Origin: Stentor roeselii
Taxonomy: Eukaryota > Ciliophora > Heterotrichea > Heterotrichida > Stentoridae
Assembly: GCA_006503475.1 (NCBI GenBank)
Contig: RSEH01000054.1
Coordinates: 119,412 to 183,411, forward strand
DNA: 64,000 nucleotides
Reading direction: 5' to 3'
The notes under the pieces were generated by a model. The model saw only the letters and a program-made list of their open reading frames with translations. It did not search any database and was not told the DNA's origin. Below, piece by piece: positions 45,301 through 62,400 of this stretch. How positions within the stretch are numbered: position 1 is the first letter of the stretch; each line of letters opens with the position of its first letter. The position numbers and the translations under genes were made by a program.

Positions 45301-48300
45301 GATATTTCATTTGGAAGTTTTGATACTGGCATGTTGTTGATGAGGAATGCTCCATCAAGGCCGATTTCTACTTCAAATTCTTGACTTGAAACTGAAGATA
45401 ACTTTACCTCGAAGCACCTTTTATGTCTCATATAAAAAACTTTTGAAATCTTGCATCTCATTGAATCTGGCCATTTTTTATCTAGAAATTCTTTGATTAG
45501 TTTAATGTCGCTTAGAACAAATTCAGGTAAGAAGCTTTCAACATCATTCATGGTTTGTTTGACCCAATTTAGCAAGTTATTCCTCAAAGGACTACTGGAG
45601 TCTTTATAAAGAACTTGGTGGTCATAGATCTTTGTAAGTGACATGAAAAAATCAGTAATTTCTCGAGGTTCTTGAAAAATCACTTTAAAATCAAATCGAT
45701 CCACAAAAAATGTCAACACAAAAATGCAACAAATTTCAAGTAGCTTTCCCTTCGCATGACTTTTTTCAATTTCGCTCAAAGTATCAGACCTTGCAATCAT
45801 GTCTTCTATTTGATCCTGCCAAGAAACATTGATTTTTCTGACTTTACTTAATAAATCCAAATACTTAATCTTTTGAACTTCATTGGTTGTCATGCTGACG
45901 ACTCTTAAAGAAATAGTAGTAATATTGAGAAGTATGATATGTTCATTCCAGTTATGAATGCAAGTGTCAAGCAAGTCAGAAACTGAAATATAAAGCTTGT
46001 CTAAATAATGATCTTTCGCAAGTAATTCATGAACTTTAGGAAAACTAGGAATTTCTGATGATTCTTGAATTGGTCCAAGTTCCCATAATGACTGACAGAT
46101 CAAGTAGTAAACTGAGTTGTTTTTAAATGGAAGAATTCTAGTTTCGACTGCATCTAGTAAGTTGTAAAGTTGAAGGTTTATTCCTGCTCGGAACATTGAG
46201 AACTTCAGGTATTCCTTTTTCGTCATGTCAGGTGGGCACATTCCTTGATTCGCTATTGCTTGGTTTTCGGTGTAGGTAGCAGTTGACAGCACCCATTGAA
46301 GATTTTTGTAATGCTCTTCAGTTTTGAATGTCAGAAGGTCTTTCAGATCAAATGAATTCGTGTCGAACTTTAATGTGAATTTCTTATTTGAGTAATGAAT
46401 ATTGTAACCATTTGACTTTATATAACTGTTTTCATTAAAGTTTTGCTTCAGAAGCAGTGAATTGAAGTGACTGTCTTTGAATGAAGTGTATGTACTTCCA
46501 AGAGTGACTTTCGTTTTGATAGCGTATAAATCGTCTCCTTTCTTTTCCGAGACCCATGATCCTCTTAAATTTTCTCCAATAATTTTTTCGTTTAATATTC
46601 GCTTGTGGAATAAGTAAACAGAGTCTCTGAGAATAGAAATGTTTTGTGGAATAACTAGTTCAAATATAACCAAGTCTTTTTCTATTGGTGAATCTGGAAG
46701 TAACTTTTCGTAGATTTTCACCCTTCTGCCATTTATAGAACGAATCCTGTTGCATTTTAAACAAGCTTTTGTGTTGTGACTGGTATCAAAATACTGGTCA
46801 TCATTACATATCATTTTTTCAGCTTCTTTCAATGCTAATTTATATAAATTTACTGCTTTTATTACTTCTCGTTTCTTTTCTTCAATATTCCAAGCATCAA
46901 TTTTTTCCAACTTTTGCTTTTTCTCAGCATGTTTTTGGAAGTTTTGACAAAATCTTATAGCAAACAAGTCGTTAAGATTTTTTTTATTTTCTAATAAATT
47001 AGGCAAGAGTGCTTTTTCTCTTTCGGTGAAATAATTAAAAAGCTCTTGTGCATAATGAATATCACTCTTTCGAGGAAGTAATAAATGTTGGAAGAGTTTG
47101 GTGCTGACTCCAAGTTTATGATCTAAAAGCAGTGGGAAGTCGCTAGTAGCGATTTTATCAATCACTGCGATTATTTTGTAGACTGTGAGAACCATCCGAG
47201 AATAGCCAAGAGGATCATCTTTATAAAATTTAGAAGCATACTTTATGTAAGGAGAAATCAGCTTGAAAATATATTGGCAAACATTTGAACTATAGTTTTT
47301 ACTCATATCAATTGAATATCGCACCCATGCTTCAAAGTCATTCAGAATGACATAATCGTATCCATCACCCTTGAAAATCATCTCAGGAATCTTTTTTTCA
47401 TCTAAATGCCTCTTGAAATCTCTTGAACATATGATTTTTCCAGAAGCCGATCGATCCATAGCAAGACTCAAATCAATCAATCTTCTGAAATCACTGAAAT
47501 CATGTTCAGTATGTTGAAAGTCAATAAAATTCGGATTAAGCTTACATCTGACCAATTGAGATTTCGACAGATTTTTCCTTAAATTATTTTCCATCATGTT
47601 TTTTTTCCTTAAAATAAAATTATTAAGTTCATCTTCAATTTTTCCGATTAATCCAGGGAAAACATTTTTAAAAGCACTTAACTTACAAGTCCTTTTCGCA
47701 AGTTTCTGAACAACTTCAAGTTTTTTTTCAATATCACCTTGCAAGAGTTTAGCAAGTATCAAATGCGAGTAAATCAAAACAGCTTTATAAAGTGCTTTTC
47801 CTTTGGCATCCCCGAACTCTTCAACAAGTAACACATTTAAGAAAACCTTTGCAGTCATCCAAATCCCACATCGCCTAAAGGGCTGACCTGAGAAATCACT
47901 GACAACATGATCCCTGTACTTTTTGATTATCTGAACAAATCTCTCAGGAGGCTCTGAACAGCAAAAGGCAAGAAACCATTCATAAACCAAGACTGGTGAA
48001 TACGAGTCTCTGAATTCTTCACATTCTGAATTTTTTATCACGGCGACAGCCTTGCTCAGGTCATTTGAGAAGTTGGCTAATTGGGATAAGTAACTGGCGA
48101 AGGCCTTTGAGTAGAGGATGGTCTTGTCAAGCACTTTTAAGCAAATTTTAGGGAAGACGTTGCAAAGATCACTTGGGTTCGACATGCATTCTTTGTTGAA
48201 ACAGCTCGGCTGAAAGGCTGTTATTAAGTCGCTGTCGTCTTTTTGGTGGTATATTGAAATTGCTGCGTTTTGACCACGAAGGTAAAGAAGGAATGGACGA

Positions 48301-48599
48301 TTTGGTTTTAGTGATTTTAAATGGTCGTGAAGGGAATCTTCGTTGATGAATTCACTACTTTGACATTCGTACCATGATTTGAAGACTTCGAAGACTTTTG
48401 ATAGGTCTATGGTGGTTTGACTGATATAGTTGTTTAGGATTTTCAGGCTTTCTATTATGAGGGAGATGTAATGGTGCTCGTCTTTTCCGGGATTGTCTAC
48501 TCGATTGGCCAGCCTTCGAGGAAAGAAGATTGTATTAAAGAATGGATCAAGTTTTGACTCGATGTCTCGAATATTTGAGAATAAATACTTAAATTCCAT
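39327..48599 (-). CDS. Giant DUF3638/DUF3645-type putative ATPase
   Basis: A single-exon 3,090-residue protein. The first ~2,000 residues are largely helical with no known domain apart from a CxxC pair (ACLKCNRIRS, ~615). At ~2053 is LNMGEGKTSVILP, a Walker A motif of the GEGKT kind seen in SecA and in the DUF3638 family. At ~2185 is DILDESDEIL, a DExD-like Walker B. At ~2633-2670 are DSHTRGTDLKIP and QACMRMRMLGHGHRV, which sit where helicase motifs V and VI fall. Large proteins of this family occur in fungi, plants and protists and remain largely uncharacterised. A translocase or ubiquitin-linked role is inference. The absence of any internal TGA over 3,090 codons fixes the genetic code. Confidence 0.8.
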   Translation of the reverse strand: MEFKYLFSNIRDIESKLDPFFNTIFFPRRLANRVDNPGKDEHHYISLIIESLKILNNYISQTTIDLSKVFEVFKSWYECQSSEFINEDSLHDHLKSLKPNRPFLLYLRGQNAAISIYHQKDDSDLITAFQPSCFNKECMSNPSDLCNVFPKICLKVLDKTILYSKAFASYLSQLANFSNDLSKAVAVIKNSECEEFRDSYSPVLVYEWFLAFCCSEPPERFVQIIKKYRDHVVSDFSGQPFRRCGIWMTAKVFLNVLLVEEFGDAKGKALYKAVLIYSHLILAKLLQGDIEKKLEVVQKLAKRTCKLSAFKNVFPGLIGKIEDELNNFILRKKNMMENNLRKNLSKSQLVRCKLNPNFIDFQHTEHDFSDFRRLIDLSLAMDRSASGKIICSRDFKRHLDEKKIPEMIFKGDGYDYVILNDFEAWVRYSIDMSKNYSSNVCQYIFKLISPYIKYASKFYKDDPLGYSRMVLTVYKIIAVIDKIATSDFPLLLDHKLGVSTKLFQHLLLPRKSDIHYAQELFNYFTEREKALLPNLLENKKNLNDLFAIRFCQNFQKHAEKKQKLEKIDAWNIEEKKREVIKAVNLYKLALKEAEKMICNDDQYFDTSHNTKACLKCNRIRSINGRRVKIYEKLLPDSPIEKDLVIFELVIPQNISILRDSVYLFHKRILNEKIIGENLRGSWVSEKKGDDLYAIKTKVTLGSTYTSFKDSHFNSLLLKQNFNENSYIKSNGYNIHYSNKKFTLKFDTNSFDLKDLLTFKTEEHYKNLQWVLSTATYTENQAIANQGMCPPDMTKKEYLKFSMFRAGINLQLYNLLDAVETRILPFKNNSVYYLICQSLWELGPIQESSEIPSFPKVHELLAKDHYLDKLYISVSDLLDTCIHNWNEHIILLNITTISLRVVSMTTNEVQKIKYLDLLSKVRKINVSWQDQIEDMIARSDTLSEIEKSHAKGKLLEICCIFVLTFFVDRFDFKVIFQEPREITDFFMSLTKIYDHQVLYKDSSSPLRNNLLNWVKQTMNDVESFLPEFVLSDIKLIKEFLDKKWPDSMRCKISKVFYMRHKRCFEVKLSSVSSQEFEVEIGLDGAFLINNMPVSKLPNEISSHDVFQRLFGRTDFDLLPSSSGSSSHTTKWIKISEKARISYTFSFSRNKNSLNITEICDTDEKLEKLELIHHDLIKPLVPSVLSENFSHWLDKTKNQVIFRAKNFNDKTFYLKSFFKLCLTNNTIEELSSGRLLINLKSSTFQELYSKLGSLMDKAENMHVYLECKEFQKITIDLPRFGLSFELDQKKTTIFSKEFRGFQVSEDQSLGTLIGLERGLVLIDKRNSDLCKKKLIVPHGKLLLLERKFHPIIEIKTETLFSPSFFIYEVDNRVRILRAGESLTAWLYLANLHAITSSIIPDPFLKITGTGRALQILQSPHVFSCSPLDKQAYQILLSISRLSPDRNFYPANFKLLEKVTWPKYLNSYASHDAFQYLCKKIIEDSNRLGFLYEKKDLQEELKLNDNHKDLYVKGYNRLLTVEMKLKTENEILMIEKKGKNDKLLAFGLEFNWDKEKVNNVKRISSQFKCTEQLSSFWSIFNELGELTGVTKKITTNTIIDWISIRSDFLNCWLDLYEICRTCSEDEKVEVLFGLSFLAYLETDMKLLLVLKVVLENQSFFRETEAPSHSFYEMISKKDFDKNEVENIVRHHAIEVEEYHLMLKDGKLIDKLEVGKMYQKEIDDCVILMVNYFENQWPCSNPKESTINLFRNEIILEKITILFKKWLKNIELFKFFKRVELLSGLFDNNSNSNIQVFSFEIFTSCLFTRFEVVLDSSSDDSQIDPELLKTSKTIYNSGSYIEELLTEEIDSQNNSSNIPNFPLLSSSNTDLENFMLNDLKESWKAHQILKNFSKNHKTSENLEERLKTLLKTYNSKIKELTEALEKSIILKFKTYSTLKNSLILPELTPSEIQKQVINQRSRFLILSQEQVIICGAICVLWTLEQRIERCLNYLDHGESQSLALSKELENVPYKNWSPQEFPSWIVLQIELDLMIRPVQVEVAKAMMFPEGNQSLVTQLNMGEGKTSVILPMIVMVLADGKFLLRVTVLKSLFNMNRSSLTQKLGGILDKRVYVVPCRRDRNFELDNVDVVKRVLEECLRYRGVLISLPEYRLSFMLKGLEMGRKKGDLILAKKLNDIEKWLKVKGRDILDESDEILSPKYQLIYTIGQQSSINCGSLRWQVCQSVLDLCKFHFIPLHEKYGDSSVSLSFPSNTLGYPHFRLLKEDPYKDLCKEICINILKGKAKQLKFFELKDFEIDSVSHYILDQEVPADLREKVLKIFPKNSEKQKILTILRGLLAYEILLTVLSKRWRVNYGVNSKYLMQAVPFRAKDVPADRAQFAHPDIMILLTQLSYFYSGLTDQALDEVFRKLQQEPDPDPEYDCWISSIPQGVKIHESIKSFKGINLSESSQKYQILYPLLRMHTPVINYWLNSYVYPKEAKEFSGKLENSAWDLCPEETITTGFSGTNDSRLLLPINTGFLGIPKLIGTNGSLIESLLLPENNEYHSMKSGITSKEILKKMSETHKDLRLLLDVGALMLELSNLELVQDWLAMRTDLEAGVFFDESNDLKVLDRKGVVVPFDMSPYKNHLQFCVIYLDDSHTRGTDLKIPQGTVGAVTLGKGLTKDKLMQACMRMRMLGHGHRVCFFACHEVDFVIKQLKADVGAKEVLEWVINNTRDMIIEQLLYWAVQGISYYRRLQIFRRFLITHDLNEYSLLYENKDVNDVSDLYASDRVQRPVNEILHELINRFTRALNLQTSESSAFKKSCQKIIEKVEKFIGSSKVFSHLFDEEQELELEIEKEEERHKENPKSAIALSPCVSSGLEKFIMTGEISCFSQSLIPIGKGFSGSSVLKISQEKAWSKDIFLTRDFVRTVKSEFFGDDFLRPPRWVCFNPALSRPQIVVISAFEANELLEGFEGASTGLVMFMPRNRIDQNHVFTLFEQIIPQNLLQQLAVFAGSLFFHHGEVDEYLKFIGYCPSPRNEIEEKLFNSGFIQHCGFVEPENRIKVFGHMECLFEENPEQLVIRIAEIRNFGVLSKFSHVFELFRCGKRPFH

Positions 48600-49682
48600 T
48601 TATAATCAATCAAAATTAAAAATGAACTTTGGGGGGGGGTGTAATTTAAAAAAAAAATAATTTAATGAAATCAACCTTCAAAACAAATCAAGGCATCCCT
48701 TGTGTTTATAAATATTTTCCTCAACTAAAACTTGATAGTTAGCTTTTTGAAACAGAGTTTACAAAATTTTTCAAAGACTCAAGTTTTCAATAATGTATGA
48801 AAAATTCTTGATAATTTATCATTTAGACACAAAAATTTATCTATTTTTTATAATGATCTTTTTTAATATATCAAAATGAAGAATTTATTATTATCAATAC
48901 AATGAATTTTATACAAAAGAGATTTAACTAAAATACTTTTTTAAAGTTAGAAGTTCGCGTTTTGTTTAAATTTTTGTGATAAATAGGATATAAAATTACT
49001 ATAGATTAGAAGATTATCGGTTCAAGCGCCATCAGTATTATTTTTATAATAATTTTGTCTTTGATTTGTTCAAAATAAAGCGTATATGAAAATTTTTTTA
49101 TAAGTGCATATATTTATGATTTAATATCCACAAAAATTTAGGTAATTTCTTACAGAAAGGAGCATTTAATCAATAGAATATCTATAAAATCAAATTGAAT
49201 AATTTTTTTTTCGATAATATAGTAAAATTTGATTCGATTTATTTAAATCAATCTAGAGACATTTATCCAAATAATTAAACTAAAAAATATGATAGCAACA
49301 AAGCGATGACACATCAATGTTTTCCGATATAGCATTTCTCATACAAATTAGTCAATAAAACGATTAGCAGTATATAAAAACTAAAAATTAACTTTTAAAA
49401 AATATTCAACATGGAACTGTTAGGATGAGATTTAAAACTTAAATTATCATATTTTCAGAATAAATCTCAAGTTAAATAATCAAATTATATGTTTATCAAT
49501 GTTTGAGACGGTTTGAATGTAAAAATAATTGGAAAAAAATTATTTTATCGTTCTTTAAGTTGAATTAATAAACAAAAAAAAAGTTCAATTTAAATAAAAC
49601 AGGATACCAGCCGTAGATAAATTATTTGTTTTAACTAAATACCTTAATAACTAATAATCTAATAATTTAATAAATGGAGCTC
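48600..49682. other. AT-rich intergenic region
   Basis: About 1.1 kb, extremely AT-rich. It starts with a run of 9 G followed shortly by a run of about 10 A (48632-48660) just upstream of the giant gene's start. No gene or repeat is recognised. A short match to a tRNA B box near 49018 is not supported by a cloverleaf. Confidence 0.5.
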
Positions 49683-52600
49683 TTATTCTCGATCAATTAA
49701 AACTACTTCATTTATTGATACTGCATTTTTAGTATCCATTCCACTCATTTCTTGATTTCTATCAATAAAATTTTCATTTCCTGAAATACTTGAAACTTCA
49801 TTGAAAAGTTCTATCATTTCATCACCAACCTTAAATTGAGTAGAAAACTCTTTTATATTTTTTTGAAACTCAATTGATAAATTTCGATCAATATGTTTTG
49901 CATTATCTTTTAAAATTTTCAAACCTTTTTTATAGTTTTCCTCAACATTTCGATTTTTGTTCTTTTTTAGATACATGATGGCAAGGTTATTATAAATAGT
50001 GACTAAACTCCGGTAATCATTTTTTGAGACTTCTATCAATATTTTAATGCTTTCTTGATAAAATTTTTTAGCATCAGTATATTTTTTTTGCTTGCTGTAA
50101 AGATTCCCAAGGTTATTAAGAATAATGGATTGAAAAGGATGAGTTCCATAGTATGTCTTTTCAAAAAAATTCAAACTTTTTTTGTAAAGATTTTCAGCTT
50201 CATTGAACTTTTCCATTTGTTCAAATAAACTTGCTAGATTACTTAAAGTTGTAGCATAATTTGGGTTATATTCAATCTCAATATTATCTGAAATACTTTC
50301 AGTATTGTTTTTTTCATCTTCAAATATGCATTCATTGCAATATTCTTCAGCTTTCTTTAGTTTTTTACTCATTTCTACCGGGTCATTCTCTAATTTTTTA
50401 CAACTTATCATGCAATTCAAAGCAAGGTTGTTATAAGTATTAAGAATTTCTTTATTATAACTGTTATTAAAAATTTTTTTCTGTTCTTTTAAACATTCCA
50501 AGAACTTTTCTTCAGCTTCATCAAATTTTTCCATATGAAAATAAATAAAGGCGAGGCATGATAAAGTACCAGGAAGATCTTTGTAATAATCTAAAGAATC
50601 AGCTTGTTGATCTTTAAGAATCAAATTGTATAATAATTCAGATTCTTTATATTTCATATTTTTTTCATAAAATTTGGCAAATTCTAAGTAAGTTGATAAA
50701 AGTTCTTTTTTCTGGTCTTGGGATTGAAGAGCTTCTTTTTTTAGGATTTCGATGCTTTTTTGGAAATATTCTTCAGCTTCTAAATTCTCTGGCTGCTCAC
50801 TTAAGAGAATCCCAAGATCTTTATAAGTTAAGGCTTTTTCCATAATGTAATTAAAATAAATATCTCTTTTATTATCCAAACTCTGTTTTAAATAATCGGT
50901 TGCTTTCTTGAAATTATTTTTTGATCTATAAAGATTTGAAATTTTTTTGTAAGTTTCAATTAAATTTTTTTCGTTGCTTGATGAATTATCTTCTAGAATT
51001 TCAAGAGATTTTTTATATAAATTTATTGCTTTTTGATAATTCTTCTGATTTTCAACTGTTTTGGCATAATTTGAATATGTTATAGCCATATCTAGAGAAT
51101 TTGAACTAGGATTTAGATCTATATTTTTAGTAAAATAATATTGAGCTCTTGGACTATTGATCATTAAGTAAAGGTTTCCGATTTTATTATTCCAAGAGAT
51201 ATCTAAATCGATATCTCCAACAATTTTCAAGTAATTTTCAATCTTATTTAATTCCCTATCAAATTTTTCCTTGTCATATATGATTTTTATATAGCTGGAT
51301 GCAAGATTAATGCTTAAATAAAGCTCGTTAATATCTTCGATTTCTCTATTAGCTGAAATATTTTCTGCATGCTGAATCAAATCTCTCATTTTTTCGAGTT
51401 TTCCAGTATCTTCATGGATTTTTTCACAAACATCGAATTCCTTAGAAAAATATTCTAGAAGTGTTTTTCTGTTCTTTTGAAAATCTCCTATATTTGCTAA
51501 CTTTTTATGCGTATTTTCATCAATGTTAAACATTTTTTTTATCATTTCGAGATTGATTATATGCAATTCAAGTAGTTTTGGGACGACTCTTTCCCAAGAA
51601 TCAGGAAACTTTTCTTCTGTAATTTCTTTCACCATGTATTCAGGAATATCTTTAGCTGAGCATAGAGAAAAAATCTCTAAACAATAAAATACTTCATTTG
51701 GAAGGTTATATTTTAGTTTTAATTGAAATTCTTTTATTTTATCCAGATCATCTCGAGCTTCAAAGTTAATTGATAAGATTTCATTAATATCTACTTTTGA
51801 TTTGATATTTTGCATAATAACTGTAATTCGACCGCCAATTCCATCAATTTTTTTAGCTAATTTCCTAGAGTGCATTTTAATAGAAGAGTCTACTTCAATA
51901 AGAAAGCTTTCAACTTTATCATTCGGTATTCCTTTGAGCTTTAAATTTTCAAATGAATCTTCACTTATTCTAATTCTTGAAAAAGATTTTGATGAAAATT
52001 CTTGTTTTGATGTTACAAGATACTTCACATAATCATTATTAGACTCAAAGAAGTATTTTTCTAGAATTTGAAAATTTTCAAGATTGTCAAAGTAAAGTAA
52101 AATTTGTACCTTTGAAGTTTTCAATTTTTCAATTATTTCATTTTCAACTATTTCAAGTTTATCATCTATTTTTATATTGAAGAAATGTGAAAGTTTTTGA
52201 AAATCTTGACGATATGATTTTGAATTTATTTGAAGTATAACTTTATATGTATGTTTGTATTTTTTGCAATATTGTAGAGCTAAACATGATTTGCCCATTC
52301 TATTCATTTGATGAATAACTAGAAGTTTTTTTCTTCGTAAGATGTTATGAATTTCTTTATGCTCTTGTGCCCTTATTATTGTTTTATAGTGAATTTTATC
52401 GAAATCTCTAAAACACTTCGACTCTGATTCTCTATTTGTCATAGGTCTTTTTATTTTTTCAATTTTATTAATGATTATTTCTTTAATCCTTTCATCATCT
52501 TTCTTAATTTGTCCAGTTGATAACTGTTCATTATATTTTTGAATAATCTCATTTGCTTTTGATTTTACTTCACCAGATTGATCTTCAATCAAGAAGAATA

Positions 52601-53801
52601 TGAACCTGACTGCCTTTTCTTTAACTCTCCAATTTTTATGATGGAGAAGATCCTGAATTTTGGGAATAATAAATTCTAAAATAAATCGGTCACTAAATCC
52701 TTTAGATGCAGTAAACTCCCTTGTGTAATCAAGCAGAAAATAAATTTTTTGCCATTTTAGTGTTTTCACAGAGTCAAATTCTCTTATGAGAAAAATTTCA
52801 ATTTCCCCTATAGTGAACCCGGTTCTTCTATCTAAAATTTCAAATATTGTTAATTTTAATACATAGTCTATATATCTTGTTTCAAGTTTTTCTTTAATTT
52901 TCTTTATTGCAGAAACTAACTCAGTGAATAATGAGCCAATTTTGTAATTTTTTACACTGCCAATAATTTTGAAACTAAAATTAATAGCGTTTCCAATTTT
53001 AGTCCATGTAGAATTCGTATTCTTTGCATCTAAGATTAATTTTTTCATAATTTTTAACTCAAGTAGTAAACTTAAATGAATCTGATTTTTTGTTTGTACC
53101 AAATCAATAGCAGTGTTAATTTTTTTTATAAGTTCATTTTGTTGCTCTGAAGTAAAAATTGCATCTCTCTCACTCCTAAAAATATGTATCATCAGCACAA
53201 CTCTCATAATTTTTAATAATTTTTGTTTATTATTATTGAATCTTGTTTCATCATCAACCATATATTCTCCTAGCCAAGAATCTTTTTCCTCATTATCATT
53301 AAAAAATTTTTCTTTATTATTTTTCAATTGTTTTTCATCATCAACCTTATATTCTCCTTGCCAAAGAGGACTTTTATCAATATTTTGAGACAAATTAGAA
53401 AAAATTTGTAAAAGATTGGTACAATCAAATATTTCTACATTGCTTAAATTATCAATAGACTCTGCATCTAATTCATTATCTTCCATTTTACTTTTTATAA
53501 GTACTGACAGATATTGAGCATTTTCTTGTATTCGACTGTCATTTCTTGGCACTGAAGATGATCCTAAAAGTCCTGGACATACTTTCAGCTCTAAGGTACT
53601 TTTATTTATGAATATTTTTCTAGATATTAGAGATGGCATTTTAGACATCCATGAAATTGAACTCATTTTTAAACCTTCTAAAAGACCTACCCACTGTTTT
53701 GAGCTGTTTTCTACGCGAACTATTGCTTTTATTGCTCCAGACTCTTTCGCTAAAGAAATTATGAATCCTCCTCTAAGAGAGATTTCAATTGATTTACCCA
53801 T
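49683..53801 (-). CDS. STAND/NLR-like NTPase with HEAT-like and TPR regions
   Basis: This is a 1,372-residue protein. The N-terminal ~130 residues are unassigned. Two copies of a W-x-GEY-x-VDDE motif lie at ~143 and ~173. Helices with a HEAT-like unit (HHKNWRVKEKAVRFIFFLI) occur at ~380. An NB-ARC/STAND module follows: a P-loop region at ~494 (QMNRMGKSCLALQYC), Walker B at ~567 (ILLYFDNLEN) and a sensor-like YLVTSKQ at ~594. The P-loop keeps GKS but its first glycine is replaced, so nucleotide binding may be weak. From ~905 to ~1320 are TPRs of kinesin-light-chain type (for example LYKKSLEILEDNSSSNEKNL). This is the layout of NLR-like signalling proteins. An innate-immune or self-recognition role is inference only. 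Codon use is more AT-rich than in neighbours. Confidence 0.78.
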   Translation of the reverse strand: MGKSIEISLRGGFIISLAKESGAIKAIVRVENSSKQWVGLLEGLKMSSISWMSKMPSLISRKIFINKSTLELKVCPGLLGSSSVPRNDSRIQENAQYLSVLIKSKMEDNELDAESIDNLSNVEIFDCTNLLQIFSNLSQNIDKSPLWQGEYKVDDEKQLKNNKEKFFNDNEEKDSWLGEYMVDDETRFNNNKQKLLKIMRVVLMIHIFRSERDAIFTSEQQNELIKKINTAIDLVQTKNQIHLSLLLELKIMKKLILDAKNTNSTWTKIGNAINFSFKIIGSVKNYKIGSLFTELVSAIKKIKEKLETRYIDYVLKLTIFEILDRRTGFTIGEIEIFLIREFDSVKTLKWQKIYFLLDYTREFTASKGFSDRFILEFIIPKIQDLLHHKNWRVKEKAVRFIFFLIEDQSGEVKSKANEIIQKYNEQLSTGQIKKDDERIKEIIINKIEKIKRPMTNRESESKCFRDFDKIHYKTIIRAQEHKEIHNILRRKKLLVIHQMNRMGKSCLALQYCKKYKHTYKVILQINSKSYRQDFQKLSHFFNIKIDDKLEIVENEIIEKLKTSKVQILLYFDNLENFQILEKYFFESNNDYVKYLVTSKQEFSSKSFSRIRISEDSFENLKLKGIPNDKVESFLIEVDSSIKMHSRKLAKKIDGIGGRITVIMQNIKSKVDINEILSINFEARDDLDKIKEFQLKLKYNLPNEVFYCLEIFSLCSAKDIPEYMVKEITEEKFPDSWERVVPKLLELHIINLEMIKKMFNIDENTHKKLANIGDFQKNRKTLLEYFSKEFDVCEKIHEDTGKLEKMRDLIQHAENISANREIEDINELYLSINLASSYIKIIYDKEKFDRELNKIENYLKIVGDIDLDISWNNKIGNLYLMINSPRAQYYFTKNIDLNPSSNSLDMAITYSNYAKTVENQKNYQKAINLYKKSLEILEDNSSSNEKNLIETYKKISNLYRSKNNFKKATDYLKQSLDNKRDIYFNYIMEKALTYKDLGILLSEQPENLEAEEYFQKSIEILKKEALQSQDQKKELLSTYLEFAKFYEKNMKYKESELLYNLILKDQQADSLDYYKDLPGTLSCLAFIYFHMEKFDEAEEKFLECLKEQKKIFNNSYNKEILNTYNNLALNCMISCKKLENDPVEMSKKLKKAEEYCNECIFEDEKNNTESISDNIEIEYNPNYATTLSNLASLFEQMEKFNEAENLYKKSLNFFEKTYYGTHPFQSIILNNLGNLYSKQKKYTDAKKFYQESIKILIEVSKNDYRSLVTIYNNLAIMYLKKNKNRNVEENYKKGLKILKDNAKHIDRNLSIEFQKNIKEFSTQFKVGDEMIELFNEVSSISGNENFIDRNQEMSGMDTKNAVSINEVVLIDRE

Positions 53802-54785
53802 ATTGAATTATATTGAAAATGTTAAAAAATGTAGAATCTTTATCTCAACTATAATGAATGTTAAATTATATCAATTTTTATAGTGATTACTTTTTAGTTT
53901 GTTATTTCTTATAGATCTTATGATCCTTGGAGTTCATTTGATTAATTGATGAAAGTTTCAGAATACCTCAATCAAAGAATGATTTGGTGATCTTATGATA
54001 AGTGATCTTAAGTATGATTAAGCAATTTAATGATAAGAGATCTTATGATAAATTCTCTCATCTAAGAAATATCTTCAAACTCATAATCAAAATATCTCCT
54101 AATTCATAAATATGTTAGCATAAATTATTCAAACTATCAACTTAGGTAAAATTTTAAAACAATTTTTAAATTTAAGAGTTTAAGATAGTCCTAAAACTGT
54201 TTCTCTAATCCACTGTTGAATATGTTTTCAAATTACATTCACAGAGCAGAAATATTTTATTTACATTTAAAGGTTCACTCATAATCATATACAGTTTAAA
54301 ATTTTCTAGGTTCTGCCAAGATATTCTAACGATGAGCGACATAAAGAGCAGATTTAATTAAGAATTGTTTTATATCTTAGGGTTTGAAAGGATTTGGCTA
54401 TATTTTTTCAAATGGCTCAATTCGATTTGGTGCAAACTACTTGCTTAGCACATTTTTGCTTTAGAAATTAGGTTTATTTAAAGCTCGATAGGTTTTGAAT
54501 AGCTTTTCTGGTCAGAAAATTTCAGAGACTCTTCAAGTTTGATGAAAAATTTATTTCTTGCCTGCCTGTGCCCATAAATGCATCAAGTCTCCAACTTAGT
54601 ACCTCTAGTACGTAAGATGATCTACATAAGGTAATTCAATGTGATCATAATTCTCTTTTTATGTAAAAATTTTGTTTACAAACGAAATTTATAGACTATA
54701 AGTCCCCTAAATTTAGAACATTTCTACCAGAACTAATTAAACCTGATAATCAACTAAAATTTAAATCTAAACAAGGTGAATTATA
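53802..54785. other. Intergenic region between divergent genes
   Basis: Upstream DNA of the STAND gene (minus) and the small WD-type gene (plus). It contains four GATCTTA-core repeats at 53914-54050. No coding frame is seen in the rest. Confidence 0.5.
53914..54050 (+). repeat. Four GATCTTA(TGATA) repeats upstream of the STAND gene
   Basis: GATCTTATGATC at 53914, GATCTTATGATA at 53989 and 54039, and GATCTTA followed by AGTATGAT at 54004. They lie 113-249 nt upstream of the STAND start codon and could be a repeated cis-element. The core GATC is palindromic. Confidence 0.55.
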
Positions 54786-55415
54786 ATGGGAAATATATTA
54801 TGTCCTTCTTCAGCTGTACAGAACCCGGATCTATTTCAAGGTTCATATAAAGACATATCTCCTACAACAGTAAATCGAGTCAAAAGTATTAATTAAGAAG
54901 AGTTCAACAAGCTTAAATATATAGAAAAAAAAGATTATGTTGAAAAAACCTGGAATTTTATACTTGAACTCAAGAGAAAAGACTATGTTTATATTATTCA
55001 AATCCTTCTTACCTATGATGAGAAATATTTATTTGTTTGTTAATGAAATTTAGGTCAAATTGATTTAGATCGTATTATAAATAAAAGACTGTAATCTCGA
55101 TTAAGCAAGTAATCTGGATCAAAGTTTGTAATTTTTATCAAGACGGTGAATTATATAAGAGGGTAATTTACAGTTAAGTGAGTAACATGCTACAAAGGAG
55201 GTAAAATTAATAAGGAAGTAAATTTATCGAAGGATGTACTTGAAACAAAGGTAATGTTTAAAAAGATTGTATCAGCTAAAATAGTGACAATATGGAATTT
55301 AGAGACAAGTAGACGTGAACATACAAGTTCTTGCTATTGTGGTTCTTTAAATAATGAGCCTTCTAACCCGGAGCATATGAAATGGTTAAGTGCTTACCCT
55401 GAGTGTGATTACTAG
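54786..55415 (+). CDS. Small WD-type gene interrupted by one 15-nt intron and a run of tiny GT-AG modules
   Basis: Exon 1 (54786-54885) starts MGNILCPSS, a possible N-myristoylation and palmitoylation signal. Intron 54886-54900 (GTATTAATTAAGAAG, A at position 10) removes an in-frame TAA. Exon 2 (54901-55038) encodes a helical part ending ILLTYDEKYLFV. Next comes 246 nt of fourteen consecutive GT-AG modules (55039-55284). The last exon (55285-55415) encodes LTIWNLETSRREHTSS... to TAG. DEKYLFV...LTIWNLE is the centre of a WD40 repeat, so the two sides belong together. With eleven 3-nt micro-exons the spliced protein has 133 residues; removing all 246 nt as one block also keeps the frame. Only one WD repeat is present, so the gene may be a truncated copy. 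Expression is unproven. Confidence 0.55.
55039..55284 (+). repeat. Array of 14 intron-sized GT-AG modules with 3-nt spacers
   Basis: Module starts: 55039, 55054, 55072, 55091, 55109, 55128, 55146, 55163, 55182, 55201, 55218, 55236, 55251, 55269. Lengths: 15,15,16,15,16,15,14,16,16,14,15,15,15,16 nt. Each begins GT (usually GTAA) and ends AG (usually AAG), and most have A at position 10. Eleven spacers are exactly 3 nt (ATC, ACT, CAA, TTT, ACG, AGG, TGA, GAG, GAA, GAT, ATT) and two joints have none. The interiors differ, though three neighbouring modules (55091, 55109, 55128) are alike. Unspliced, all three frames are closed. The splice ends match the real introns found elsewhere in the window. 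Confidence 0.7.
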
Positions 55416-56218
55416 AATCATAATTCATTTCAATAGTTAATAATTAGTTTAGTTTCATGATTTACATCTAACTGCAAATGAATTTTCACTTCAATGATCA
55501 AACTAGATAATTCAATTCACCTAAGGAAATATTTAAAAAGTTAGTTGTGACTTTTAAGCTCCTTCAAAACTAAGTATATACTCATATATTACTAAGACCT
55601 TCATTTCTATTCAAATTAGTTAAAGAATGATAGAATTGTGGAATAAAAAACTGAAATATAAAATTTTTCTTGTAGTTAAGGGCTACATATTGTTTTTACC
55701 TTTAGGATAATGTTTGATCAGGCATGAATTGTTTAACTTGTTTTTAATAAATTTTAAGTGTTTAGATTACTAATCCAATGCATTTACAATTTACTGATAT
55801 AATATCCCTTAATTCTTTAGTTTTTTTTTTGTAGTAGGGTCCTATTAAATTATCTTGACAGCAAAAGCTTTTTCAACATGTAATTTCTTTCTACCAAATC
55901 AGTAATATTTAATGTTTATTCATTTATCAACCTCTTATAATGAATTTAAAGAAGATTTTATGCATAGACTGCAATAAAAATTACACCAACTTCAGAAAAA
56001 CTTATATTTTAAAGATAATTAAAATTTTAAAAAAATACTTAACAGGCATGATAATTACAACTTATATCATTTAGTTCAATTATGAAAAAATTGACTGTGA
56101 TAAACCACAAACATATGTATTGGCTTACATTTTTAAGTTTTGAAGTTAACAATTAATTTCCAGAAATAACTCGATTTCACATTGTATTAAACTTTATAAA
56201 TATTCCAATATAATAAAT
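55416..56218. other. AT-rich intergenic region
   Basis: About 800 nt between the small WD-type gene and the next WD40 gene. No gene, repeat or RNA is recognised. Confidence 0.5.
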
Positions 56219-58207
56219 ATGTTCAGTGTGACGTCGGAAAGAAAAGTTTTCAAATGTGTTTGTCAAGAAAAATTGATTTATAGCTCAGAATTGAGAGAGC
56301 ATTTACTCAAACCCTTACATCATATAATCACTGTAATAAAGCCAAAGAAAACCCTAAACGAAATCACGGAACATCAAATTAAACAAAGAATAAACTTTAT
56401 AAAGTCATCAATCACTAAACTAGACCAATACAGTCAAAACCTTAACAAAAATATTCAAAACAATTCGCTTATACATTTCATAAAACTTTACAAGATTTAC
56501 TTAAATTCAGATTTAAACCCACTCTTTGATTGTACAAAACACTCACAACTTACAAAAATTATAAAAATTATCGATAATAGCCATACTATCTTAGAAGTAA
56601 CGAACTTCAAATACCTCAAGAACATTATTCATAAGAATTTCAATCTATTTTTAAAATCTCATATATCTCAAATAATGTCAATTTCAATAGAAGAAAATCT
56701 CAAAATGTTGATTGTCGGGGAGTTTGATGGAAGTGTTCGGATATTTAGTCTCGAAAGTTTGAATCAAATAGCATGTTTGCATTATCATGAATCTGTTGTG
56801 AATGTTATTCATAGTAAATCAGTTTTATGCTTATCAGGCTCATACGATTCAAAAATCTGCCTATTCAATCTGAAATCAAAAAAACTGAAAACATGCTTCA
56901 AAACTTGTAATGGTAAAATCATCTCTTTGATGATTTCAGCGGACTCTAAATTTTTTTTAAGTGGATCAGAAAAAGGATATATTGAAATTTGGAGCATAAT
57001 AAGTAATTGTCTGGCATTTAAAATGAATGCAAAATTTGGTGTTATGTTTGCTAGGTTCATTCAAAATGATAGTTTTATAATCTGTTGTACCATTGAAGGA
57101 AGTATTCAAAAGTTCAATCTTGAACAGAAGTATCATCCTATGATAAAAAAACAATATAAAGATGATTTGTATTGCAGCAGTCTTATTGAAGGAAATGATA
57201 TTTTACTAACTGGGCACAAAGATGGATTTATTCAAGTTTTAAAACAATTTCAACTCTTCAAAACTTTCAAAGCTCATTCACAAAAAATTAACACAATAGA
57301 CTACTGCTCAAAAACTGGAAAATTTGTTTCAGGATCAGATGATGAAACTGCAAAAGTGTGGAGTTTATCTTCGTTTTCACTTTTAGCAGTTCTTGATCAT
57401 TTCAAACAAATTATTTTATGTCTTAAACTACTAAACAATACAATAATTGCAAGTGGTAGAAGAAAAGATATTGAATATTTCGATCTTTCATCTCAAGAAG
57501 TCATAAAAACAACAAATCAGAGAAAATTTGATTCATTTGTTTTATCAATTTCAATAAAACTCAAGCTGATTGTTTATGGATTTGAAAGTATTTACTTACA
57601 CAGTCTTAGTTCGAACTCTGATATTTGTTGCAGGTCATTTGAGAGCAATGTTTGTTATTTAGTGTTTTCAAGCTCATTTATTACATGTGGAACTGCGAAA
57701 GGGTTTATTTATTGTGTTGATACGGTTTGTTTGGAAATAAAGAAAAAGTATTTTTTTGGAGTTTCCCCAGTTAGATTTGTTAGAACAACAAAAAATTGGG
57801 AAGTAATGGGTTATTCAAGTAATAATAAATCAATTGTAAGAGATTTAAGAAATTTAGAAATTTTATTGACTCACAATAGAAGAATTGAAGTTGGAAAGTT
57901 TAGAAGGAATCGTTTTGTTTTTCAAGATGAATTTGGGGATTTGTACATTTCAATTGAATTCAAGAATATGAGAAAAATCAGTAATTTGAGAAGTTTTCAA
58001 TTATTTTGGTGCAGATCAATTGATTATGTAATTTTAAAAGGCACGGATTCTGGCTTTAGTATATTTAATCTGAGAATTCTAGAAAATGAAATTAAATTAG
58101 AAAGGCTGAAAGGAATCAAATTCATGAATAAAAAAAGAGAGTTTAGTCTGACCAAACGAGATTTGATTTTATCATCGCTTAAATTTAGAACTGGCCGTCT
58201 TAACTAA
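56219..58207 (+). CDS. WD40-repeat protein with a partial zinc-finger-like N-terminus
   Basis: This is a 662-residue protein. The first 40 residues (FKCVCQEKLIYSSELREHLLKPLHH) look like a reduced B-box with two cysteines and a His pair. A helical segment follows (~45-150). From ~165 to ~600 there are about seven to nine degenerate WD40 repeats (VGEFDGSVRIFSL, SGSYDSKICLFNL, SGSEKGYIEIWSI, SGSDDETAKVWSL), enough for one propeller. The later repeats lose the WD residues. It resembles the B-box/coiled-coil/propeller relics in this window, so it belongs to a locally expanded family. A scaffold function is likely; the partner is unknown. Confidence 0.75.
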   Translation: MFSVTSERKVFKCVCQEKLIYSSELREHLLKPLHHIITVIKPKKTLNEITEHQIKQRINFIKSSITKLDQYSQNLNKNIQNNSLIHFIKLYKIYLNSDLNPLFDCTKHSQLTKIIKIIDNSHTILEVTNFKYLKNIIHKNFNLFLKSHISQIMSISIEENLKMLIVGEFDGSVRIFSLESLNQIACLHYHESVVNVIHSKSVLCLSGSYDSKICLFNLKSKKLKTCFKTCNGKIISLMISADSKFFLSGSEKGYIEIWSIISNCLAFKMNAKFGVMFARFIQNDSFIICCTIEGSIQKFNLEQKYHPMIKKQYKDDLYCSSLIEGNDILLTGHKDGFIQVLKQFQLFKTFKAHSQKINTIDYCSKTGKFVSGSDDETAKVWSLSSFSLLAVLDHFKQIILCLKLLNNTIIASGRRKDIEYFDLSSQEVIKTTNQRKFDSFVLSISIKLKLIVYGFESIYLHSLSSNSDICCRSFESNVCYLVFSSSFITCGTAKGFIYCVDTVCLEIKKKYFFGVSPVRFVRTTKNWEVMGYSSNNKSIVRDLRNLEILLTHNRRIEVGKFRRNRFVFQDEFGDLYISIEFKNMRKISNLRSFQLFWCRSIDYVILKGTDSGFSIFNLRILENEIKLERLKGIKFMNKKREFSLTKRDLILSSLKFRTGRLN

Positions 58208-59468
58208 CTCTTAATTAGTAGTAATAAAGTGTTTATTATAAATTTTATAAATAACTGTATTAATATTCAATTTTTAAAGAATTCTACTGCAATTTTCCTA
58301 AAATCAATGTCTATAAATCGAGAAATCTGGTTTACTCCAGTAATGAGAAAAAAGAAACTCAAAAGTCCTGAAGAGAATAATCTCACTAAAGCAGCTTGGT
58401 TGTAAATAAATATATAAACACTATTTAAGGTATTCAGAATATCAAACAAAATTATTAGAATGCTTTTAATTTTTAATAATCCTCTGCTCATATAAAATAA
58501 TAGAAAGTTTTGTTAGTAGATCCAAATTATCAAATTGAAATAATTCTATCATATTTATATTTTTAACTGAAAACTTATCACCATTACCAATATACATATA
58601 TTCAATCATTTATTATTACTGTACTAGATAAATTTGTCTAGGTGAGTACTAGGAATATTATATTGATCAAATTAGCAAAGAGTAATAATTTTGATAATTT
58701 AAACCGAAATACTGATTTTTTGTACCTCCGATAGTCCCGATGTTTTTTCTCTGATACATATTAGTATTAATACAAATTTAAGGTTTCAAGCAGGGAGAGG
58801 TGGTTTTTATCTATAGTTGATTTTAAAAACTTCCCTTCAACAGAGGTAACATAATGAACCATATTTCTATAAGGCTTCAAGTGAAAAATAATATATAATA
58901 CTTCCAAAAATATTGAGTTTGTGAAGGTCCTGGAACCTAATTTAGTTAAAAAATGTGAAATCGACAAAGTGCCCTTGTACTGAGTTATAAAAAAATATAA
59001 ACTTAAAGATTTTTAGATATGATATTTCATAACTGCAAACCAAGAATCTCTAATAATGTTAAATCTGAAAGTCTCGAGTGTTATGAGCGATTCTAATATC
59101 AGTTTTCTAGACAGACGCTAGATTGAAGTCAGATAGAAATATTTCTTCAGCCTTATAGCTACCAAGATTTGGCTTTAAACTTTAACACAACTTTTTCAAT
59201 TTGTTAATTCTAATCAAGTTTATATTTGGAATCAAATTAATTTTCTCCATAAATAAAGATTTCACAGGGCCTTTACCAATCTTTAGAGGTTTTCTTTTTG
59301 TATCCAAGGAAAGATTATATCTAAAAGATTTTATGCAAGATAATTTTCGAAAAACCAAAAATATATCTATCAATTTATCAAAAATATATTCTAAATCGGC
59401 AGCATTTGATTATTTAACGATAAATTAAACGACATATAAATAAAATTTACCTAATCTAAATTTTCTAA
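58208..59468. other. Gene-poor region with possible relics
   Basis: No intact large gene. On the minus strand 59182-59409 is open and protein-like (for example LIDIFLVFRKLSCIKSF, KIGKGPVKSLFMEKINL) without an upstream ATG; it may be a decayed fragment. A short membrane-like frame at 58267-58491 is listed separately. Confidence 0.35.
58267..58491 (-). CDS. Possible small two-segment membrane protein
   Basis: A 74-codon frame with ATG and TGA stop, containing two hydrophobic stretches (SILIILFDILNTLNSVYIFI and LLSFFFLITG). No homologue is recognised. In DNA this AT-rich, Phe/Ile/Leu-rich frames arise easily by chance, and the region around it looks like gene debris, so this may not be a gene. 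Confidence 0.2.
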   Translation of the reverse strand: MSRGLLKIKSILIILFDILNTLNSVYIFIYNQAALVRLFSSGLLSFFFLITGVNQISRFIDIDFRKIAVEFFKN

Positions 59469-62400
59469 TTATTCTAAATCACTTTGTTCAATATCTCTCA
59501 TTTCTTTATCTTTTTTCTTTTTTTCAATCCATTTTGCCACCTTTGAAATCACAAAAAGTTTCATGAGTATTAAAATAACTGAAATGATACAAAGCCTAAC
59601 AAGGATGGCAGTGATCGTATTAAAGATCCACATGTAACTAGTTCCTGTGGGCAAGTTAAGTGCAAAAAGTGAAATACTCCAACAAAAGTAAGCCATGACG
59701 ATACAATAGACAATTATAAGGACAAGGTTTACAATCTTATTCCTTTTTATAATGATCAAGTTTTCAGGTTTCGAAAGGTTAAAATTAAGAGGCTTGTCCT
59801 TGAATATCGCAGGAAGGACTTGAACTAAGACACTCATAATAGCTGAAGAATAAACCATCACCAAAAAATCCTGAAAAGTGTAATTTTTAATACTATCGAA
59901 AATCCCTGAACTTTTTTTGCTTTCACCTTTATAGAACAGTCCTATAAAAAACATTTTCCCAAGAAAAACTGTGAATATTAAGGTGCATCGAAGAGATCTG
60001 GTGTGCAAAGGGTCTCGTAAGTAAAACAAACTTAAGAATTCATGGCTTTCTAAGAAAGTAATTATTCTTGACTTTGTCTGTTCTGATTCTTGGTTTCCTT
60101 TAAGAGTATCCGAAGAAACTTCTTTATTAATTTCAATCTGAGATGGCGATTCTTCAGTGTATTTTGAATTTATTTTTGGTAGATGTTTTGAATTTAAGTC
60201 AAATTCATTCAAAGTGTTGAAATTGTCTTGTGGGTCTGATTTTTCGTGGTTTTTTACTGCAGAGAACTTCAAATCAATGAGCTCATGAAGTTCATTTAAG
60301 TCTTGCTTATCTTTTTTTACAGTCAAAATCATGAAAATGATATAAACTATGATTATTCCCAAAGAAAAGTAGAACCCAATGGCATTTGTAGCATTGATAT
60401 TTTTCAAAGATTCGACATTTACAGTCTGGTCAATATTTGAGTCAGGCACAAATTTCGAAAATTTTTCTCTAGAAGAGAAAAAAGTCAAGTGATTACATTG
60501 ACAAACAGCTGAATCCTCATTGGTCTTGACAAGTTTGCATCCTTTAGTACTCCACTTCTCTCTCTCATTATCCAAGTAAACACATGACAAGTTCTTCATC
60601 TGCTGCACTTTATCTACAGGAATCGTCAAAAATAAAAAAGAAGCCTTTAGGTTCACCTGCAACGGAGTGGCCTGAGTCTTCGAAAACAGACTAAGTCCAA
60701 GAATGGTTCCACTTGAGCTGTTGCCTGTATTCTCAACATTGACAAACCCAACAGAAACCCCGACATTTTCAGGCAAATTCTTTGAAAAGCCACTTGGAAG
60801 TGCGATGGACACAGATTCACTAGCTGAGCTTTTTAAAGTCATGCCGTTGATCGAGGTACTTTTAGAAGAAAAGACATCTACAGTGATTTGAGTAGAACTT
60901 AAAGTCTGCTGCTGCTCGTCGACAGTGCCGAGTAACGTGCCTTTGCTGACCTGGTCAATAACTGAGGTGATGGAAGTCATTAGTTTAGTTTGGTTTAATG
61001 CGCTTTCAGAAGTAACTTTGCCTGAGTTGGTCATAATCTTCAGAAAACCTGACCCTTGAGACGATGACAACGCGATTTCGGCTGAGTTGGACCTGGTGAG
61101 TAGAAAATTTGTTATTTCATTTATTGACGACGAGTTGTTCACACTGGAAAGTTTTGAGTTTGCTGTCAGAGAATCGAGCAGAGATATCATCTGGTCTGTT
61201 ACGTATGATGAAGGGTAGATCGATAGAGAGTAGATTGATAGGTAATATGTGCAGTTGTCAAATGCTGACTGAAGGGTTGCTTCGGAGGTTGAGTTCTGAT
61301 CGCTTGTGATTAACTCTCGGTTTAACACTCCGTTTATTAGGTTTCCTAGAAGAGAAGGATAGTCTTTTAAAAGACTTGTTGTCAGAGCTTTCGAAGTTTC
61401 TTCTAGGAAATCATTTGAGTTGAAGTCAGGGTTTATTGAAATTTTAAATTTTTCAGTTACCTCGATGAAATCGTCTAAACTGTCGAAAACCTGGCAAAGT
61501 GCTTCTAAAGACTCTCCTAGGTAAGAGAAAACAGTCTCAAACGAGTTTTTCTGTGACTTTTCACTGAGAAAACTCTTCTTTCCTTCAACGAGGTACCCGA
61601 AAGTAAAGGCCAGGGGGTAGTCTTCTTCTTCATCAAGCCAATCAACAGCCTGAAAGTTGAAAGTTGTTTGAATTTCAAGACCTTCACTGGGACTGACCGA
61701 AAAGTACCCGATTTTTGGCGGCTGATTCGCAGTAAACTCGTAAAAAAAATTATAAGTAAAGCTCTCATCTTTAACCAAAAATAACAGCTTATAAGCCCCT
61801 CCAGGAACTGTTAAAGACATGTCAATCACCACTGCTGAGTTACTTTCACCTGATTTTACAAGATTTTTATCGTTTTCTTTTAAAACCCATTCAGTTTCAA
61901 AGTAATCTCCTGATACAAGAGCTGTCAACGAAGCGTCTTTTGATATGACAAAGCGTTTCGGTTGGTTTCTTTGGAAAGTTTCAATGATCGAAACACTCGG
62001 AACTAATCGATCAACGAATTCACCTGAAAAGAAGGCCTGACTAGTTTTCACTACTTTTTCATTCAACCCTTTCAATGAAACAGTTGAAGAAACGTCCAGA
62101 ACAAATGCGTCGAAAAGTCTGGCTTTTACGATTTTTTTGCTGATGAAAAGAGAACTTTTATCAGAAGTGTAAGAAAAATTGCAAATGCCTAAACAACTCC
62201 ATAAAAATGTCAGCTCTCCGCTGTTAGGGTCATAACTTTCCGAGGCATCAACTAATAAATCTTTCAACGTAGAGATCATTCCTGAGACATTTTTTATAAT
62301 TATCACTGGATCTTCAGGCTCGATTGAAATTTGAAGAGTTTCATTCCCAAAGACCTGTGAAGTTTCCTCAAAGACAGTAACTTCAAATTTTATGATAGAT

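Follow-up and report, generated by a model that had tools for sequence, protein, structure and literature searches.

The micro-exon genes of Schistosoma carry many tiny symmetric exons whose loss or gain is frame-neutral and which are tied to protein variation, as far as the cited passages describe them (PMC4350168, PMC8293314). Ultra-short exons can also be spliced when they stand alone, the sources quoted here giving a 1-nt exon in Arabidopsis APC11 and a 3-nt exon in Drosophila hth (PMC4674806, PMC7392893). Very short introns are known from Stentor coeruleus, in which, according to the sections cited, all annotated introns measure either 15 or 16 nt, the branch A lies at position 10 in 15-nt introns and position 11 in 16-nt introns, and some genes contain more than eight introns that the authors were unsure were all spliced (PMC9505925). 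Here we describe a locus within a 64,000-nt stretch of Stentor roeselii DNA (the window, C383:119412-183411, from a genome of 44.4 Mb in 522 contigs), where fourteen units of 14-16 nt very probably represent spliceosomal introns with exons of a single codon, or of zero length, between them, in a gene whose family numbers at least 99 loci. The family was absent from the first-pass annotation of this DNA, which dealt with the array in the window.

The array occupies 55039..55284 on the plus strand. These 246 nt split without remainder into fourteen GT-AG units, and of the thirteen joints between them eleven are 3 nt and two are 0 nt; a recount gave the same division as the first-pass annotation. 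The putative introns start at 55039, 55054, 55072, 55091, 55109, 55128 and 55146, then at 55163, 55182, 55201, 55218, 55236, 55251 and 55269. Our decoder, which required GT and AG ends and had no knowledge of reading frame, also returned fourteen units but preferred 16+1 nt over 14+3 nt at 55146, so this joint is ambiguous unless the frame is considered. With the 14+3 split the spliced frame leads on from DEKYLFV, via YHSIYEVRGRY, to LTIWNLE, exactly as had been proposed. The first of the eleven predicted single-codon exons, ATC, lies at 55069..55071, and the others, of 3 nt each, start at 55088, 55106, 55125, 55143, 55160, 55179, 55198, 55215, 55233 and 55266.

The spliced gene would comprise 133 codons, from the ATG at 54786 to the TAG at 55413-55415, all features being on the plus strand. 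Exon 1 (MGNILC...VNRVK, 54786..54885) has a frame that carries on across the next intron and, unlike the long family members, has no Cys/His-rich box. It is followed by a predicted 15-nt GT-AG unit, GTATTAATTAAGAAG, at 54886..54900, the removal of which would take out an in-frame TAA upstream of the array. Family comparison identifies exon 2 (54901..55038), ending in DEKYLFV in phase 1, as the conserved 5' anchor and the last exon (55285..55415), reading LTIWNLE...YPECDY before the stop TAG, as the conserved 3' anchor. The next gene downstream (56219-58207) codes for a 662-aa WD40 protein in a single uninterrupted frame. The G+C content around the array gene (48001-60000) falls to 26-27%, compared with 29-41% elsewhere in the window.

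The next-longest chain in the window has three units, at 37012 on the plus strand, and the minus strand contains no chain of three or more. Setting the joints to 1/4 nt or 2/5 nt reduced the chains in the target region to only 2 and 1 units. A genome search for runs of GT-AG units against controls had been suggested in the first-pass annotation. In the genome a three-module pattern occurs 170 times, against 22 for the reversed pattern, and Markov-1 simulations of local composition (60 x 20 kb, 1.2 Mb in total) never produced more than three units, against the fourteen observed. A chance origin of the array is therefore rejected. The conserved end of the array occurs 25 times in the genome and never in reverse.

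Across 44 stretches read by the same frame-blind decoder, 429 of 441 joints were multiples of three, and 430 of 434 after edits. The edits re-split the window unit from 16+1 to 14+3, cut a decoy first unit in L022 and cut decoy last units inside the VWNLE exon, which were 15 nt and so left the frame test unchanged; L042 and L054, the same arrays as L036 and L051, were left out. Where both anchors were present, the 5' exon was left in phase 1 in all 34 arrays and the 3' exon was re-entered in frame in 32 of 34, counting the doubtful L083, whose chain ends short of its 3' exon. Thirty of the 34 arrays are clean; L035 and L069 are out of frame and L077 is in frame only via a second shift in the 3' exon. 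L072 has a joint of 2 nt, and its 3' exon scored too low for counting. Judged by frame or stops, the broken or unclear arrays are L035, L069, L072, L077, L121 and L093, together with C30 (L124), which has three long joints.

Left unspliced, the 32 curated arrays have a length divisible by three in nine cases and an open frame in one, perhaps L021. The other 31 are closed, which leaves a coding hexapeptide minisatellite, named beforehand as an observation that would overturn the intron reading, unsupported. When spliced, the same arrays contain one stop in 310 codons (in L077), against 8/279 and 29/311 in the other two phases, and permuting the joints within arrays gave 16.7 +- 2.7 stops, with a minimum of 7 in 5000 permutations. 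The unedited set gave 2/436 in frame compared with 13/404 and 37/447 in the other phases.

A held-out set of 40 stretches, picked by protein similarity of the last exon and not by GT-AG units, was decoded unedited; it includes C30, which overlaps an array of the first set, and C408, a near copy of C29. Here 386 of 390 joints were multiples of three (0 nt, 100; 3 nt, 217; 6 nt, 62; 9 nt, 7), the exceptions being joints of 4, 5, 5 and 11 nt. In 17 of the 40 the chain ends 33-271 nt before the last exon; the remaining 23, for which the frame was scored, contain one stop in 250 codons in frame against 30/249 and 15/248 in the other phases. Permutation of these joints gave 8.3 +- 2.0 stops, with a minimum of 2 in 3000. 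With both anchors present, 11 of 12 arrays were in frame (L121 was out), and the unspliced length was divisible by three in 4 of 12.

Since the joints come in multiples of three and stops are scarce in the spliced frame, translation of the joints as exons of one codon each is the most likely reading. Among the readings offered in the first-pass annotation this one is strongly favoured, as the joints keep to threes while the introns vary from 14 to 16 nt, and stops are scarce only after splicing. Its alternative of one long intron, about 120-500 nt of tandem modules removed as a block with the joints untranslated, would fit the GT at the start and the AG at the end of the array and the adjacent modules that are sometimes exact duplicates, but the interior of an intron has no need of joints in threes or of stop avoidance in one frame. 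As it leaves this coding constraint unexplained, we regard it as very improbable. A dead or non-coding tandem repeat in decaying genes would account for the broken copies (C205, L069, L072, L077), yet anchors and frame are kept in most of the arrays tested and this explanation seems exceedingly unlikely. The use of UGA for Trp throughout was considered and rejected, as there is no in-frame TGA in eight window frames longer than 2 kb. L025 and L074 have TGA where their relatives have Trp (FLxDNF).

The units themselves look like heterotrich introns. Of 889 units, from which L124 was excluded, 450 have a length of 15 nt, 341 of 16 nt and 98 of 14 nt, and A is found at position 10 in 88%, 86% and 94% of these classes respectively, the decoder having given a small bonus to an A standing sixth from the end (position 10 of 15). 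In 16-nt units A is at position 10 in 86% and at position 11 in 33%. The length and the GT-AG ends, and probably the A at position 10 of 15-nt introns, are likenesses shared with the 15-16-nt introns of S. coeruleus and Blepharisma, as given in the cited sections (PMC9505925, PMC9942806). Within the window, the SPT16 gene (identified with Pfam) is interrupted at 18311-18325 by GTATTAAACATGTAG, of 15 nt with A at position 10. The first-pass annotation had called such introns proven; the SPT16 intron stands as described, and the word was too strong for a sequence-based assignment. It could be argued that the GT-AG units are IES-like DNA excised during nuclear development, since ciliates do cut DNA from their genes, but length, ends and A10 agree with the SPT16 intron and with published heterotrich introns, and we give this idea hardly any weight. 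Some relatives of the array genes may be among the multi-intron genes of S. coeruleus.

The family comprises at least 99 loci on 85 contigs when pattern and protein searches are combined. This count uses 105 of the 170 pattern matches, excludes hits inside frames longer than 600 aa and C461, and does not include C23 (L034), which has no family anchors. The closest relative at the DNA level, C205, is 73% identical with many gaps and looks decayed. Searching with the spliced protein found further relatives, and most of those read carry a conserved exon ending in DxKYxF, an array, and a conserved exon that starts with (I/V)WNLE and ends near YPEC. Another protein search returned 134 matches, which include WD40 repeats within long frames. 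Protein database searches returned no homologues elsewhere at E<=1e-3.

Decoded relatives have chains of 3 to 29 units. In a frequent skeleton ...KYxFxx T is followed by an intron, a zero joint, an intron, ATT and then variable codons, and the 3' part runs intron, zero joint, intron, NNT, last intron, and T.. leading into VWNLE. All 32 curated loops start with Tyr, have 5-17 residues and differ from one another, L077 having a loop with a stop; examples are YHSIYEVRGRY in the window, YWTYNNCNY, YFDGFGRTVR, YSFGGGELKW and YWQRDLGLGRYEY. The gene on C493 has 29 units and 25 array codons (YHDYDYDYDYGVAGDRNSDLGERYA) within 508 nt, and with the 29 predicted introns removed its frame is open from the start of the contig to the stop.

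Several loci depart from this pattern. With a relaxed decoder L124 (C30:111500-112930) gave 31 units, with 27 of 30 joints at 3 nt and three at 15, 22 and 21 nt, and its array ends at the family 3' exon; it is perhaps the longest array, partly decayed. L034 (C23:4988-8029) has 24 units of GTAAAAAAAATCAAAG-like modules with mixed joints and no recognisable family exons, and may be another gene or a decayed copy. L023 (C486:7925-8113) has the family last exon (VKIWNLETKKKEF...YPECSY) with no upstream array and is likely a truncated copy. L088, L101 and L109 (C244, C247, C462) have a second array style, with joints alternating 0, 3 or 6 and two introns per codon exon, and their arrays extend past the stretch examined. 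Of 71 family loci on contigs at least 40 kb long, 37 are found no more than 10 kb from an end, against 12.8 expected. This enrichment may reflect assembly breaks, as the ends of C99 and C506 fall inside family genes.

The long members begin with an N-terminal Cys/His-rich box, B-box-like, followed by a charged stretch. Pfam searches with six first exons gave an ANCHR-like B-box in two of the six, at E 0.23 and 1.5, below the cut-off, and the remaining weak matches look like chance. Alignment of the spliced product with WD40 repeats from its own genome puts the loop on the SGSxDxT turn (seven stretches, six of them in frames longer than 1000 aa). This turn is located on a binding face of WD40 propellers. 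The sequence LLFSSDGKY...VWNLETKRRE aligns with the repeats of WD40 proteins in the same genome, and the array gene differs from these in having only one repeat-like unit. When four spliced products were compared with Pfam, no WD40 model matched at E<=1, and a PDB profile search found four RACK1-type chains at no better than E 0.24-0.98.

The codons vary far more than the introns around them. In modules of 16+3 nt (n=181) the codon bases score 1.92, 1.83 and 1.97 bits, and intron positions 5-9 and 11-13 of the same-size modules 0.8-1.4 bits. Between adjacent modules, identity is 67.5% over the free intron positions and 32.8% over the codons, against 59.6% and 28.2% for random module pairs, and codon identity is 40.2% in the 34 adjacent pairs whose introns are identical at 8 or more of 9 positions. 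With L124, the same array as L036, left out, the 25 array pairs whose introns are most alike (95-100%) include two with fully identical codons (L035/L120 and L087/L095), and in the other 23 the codons agree at 33-78%. The module counts that follow leave out L124 and also L120, a copy of L035. Where adjacent modules have identical introns, the codons differ at 0, 1, 2 or 3 bases in 6, 0, 11 and 1 cases; for any such pairs within one array the counts are 8, 13, 25 and 1, and across arrays 38, 137, 221 and 121, so that codons are shared across arrays slightly above random (0 differences in 38/517, against 3.2% expected). The intron GTAACCTACATCGAAG is present in 21 copies, and these are paired with 17 different codons. 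Growth of the array by intron duplication had been raised in the first-pass annotation and is borne out in part, as the 82 arrays contain eight exact adjacent module duplications.

Neutral ageing at an equal pace in introns and codons does not yield conserved introns with variable codons. The simplest account is diversifying selection or the exchange of whole modules. Splicing constraint alone is a less likely cause of the intron conservation, because the introns of the window, C493 and C77 differ much yet share the frame rule.

We propose that removal of the introns would join single codons in phase 1 (last base, then first two). The resulting loop would have 5-17 array-coded residues across the curated arrays and as many as 25 in a single gene, and would lie in a WD40-like stretch between DGKYxF and VWNLE. 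Since every module pairs a tiny intron with whole codons, the frame would never shift whatever the intron length, and gain, loss or exchange of modules would alter the loop by whole residues. The conserved introns may supply the homology for module duplication and shuffling, and selection for variable recognition may keep the codons diverse. Introns would presumably be removed one after another, because adjacent introns seem to leave too little room for two spliceosomes to work side by side, and at zero joints single removal or removal as a 30-31-nt pair would give an identical product. It is also conceivable that splicing is variable, any 5' site being joined to any later 3' site, so that each gene gives many in-frame loop variants in a per-transcript lottery. 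Skips would preserve the frame given single-codon exons, and schistosome micro-exon genes behave in this way in the passages cited (PMC4350168, PMC8293314), but a skip needs an intron of at least 33 nt, against the 15 or 16 nt that are the only annotated lengths in the cited part of the S. coeruleus work (PMC9505925). We consider such a lottery unlikely. From the sequences we read the array as a probable frame-safe generator of variable recognition loops. The wider proposal, that the family forms a genome-wide set of recognition proteins with a loop encoded one codon per exon, whose introns would work in splicing and at the same time supply the recombination homology for module exchange, is a serious possibility that we put forward tentatively. 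If true, it would describe a codon-by-codon diversity generator in a single-celled eukaryote, antibody-loop-like in outcome.

Should the genes be spliced as predicted, the 29 introns and 25 codons within 508 nt on C493 would set a new extreme of exon-intron density, and the arrays would offer a direct test of how the spliceosome handles neighbours a few bases apart. The usual rule is inverted here, the introns being conserved and the exons hypervariable. Introns would gain a frame-proofing use in tandem loop diversification, a use we did not find in the open-licence papers searched. Gene finders that bar 14-nt introns and 3-nt exons would truncate array genes.

How far does this architecture depart from known systems? 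Compared with S. coeruleus and Blepharisma, where most intron-bearing genes have one intron in the descriptions cited, array genes have up to 29 in 508 nt; the A at position 10, not 11, of 16-nt units and the 98 units of 14 nt are likewise unlike the published heterotrich introns in those descriptions. The Arabidopsis APC11 and Drosophila hth exons are lone in the accounts cited, whereas here such exons would form tandem arrays. The Schistosoma micro-exon genes are the nearest known kind, and the array exons, predicted to be multiples of three flanked in phase 1, are symmetric as theirs are. Exons of up to 36 bp make up most of the coding region of those genes in the cited passages, whereas the arrays here encode one loop only, with mostly one-codon exons, introns of 14-16 nt, conserved introns and hypervariable codons, in a ciliate and not a schistosome. 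The first-pass annotation knew of no described case, and likewise we found no array of one-codon exons in the open-licence papers searched. Because none of them combined one-codon exons with intron conservation and exon hypervariability, we call the architecture categorically new; to a stricter reader it may be an extreme variant of the micro-exon gene.
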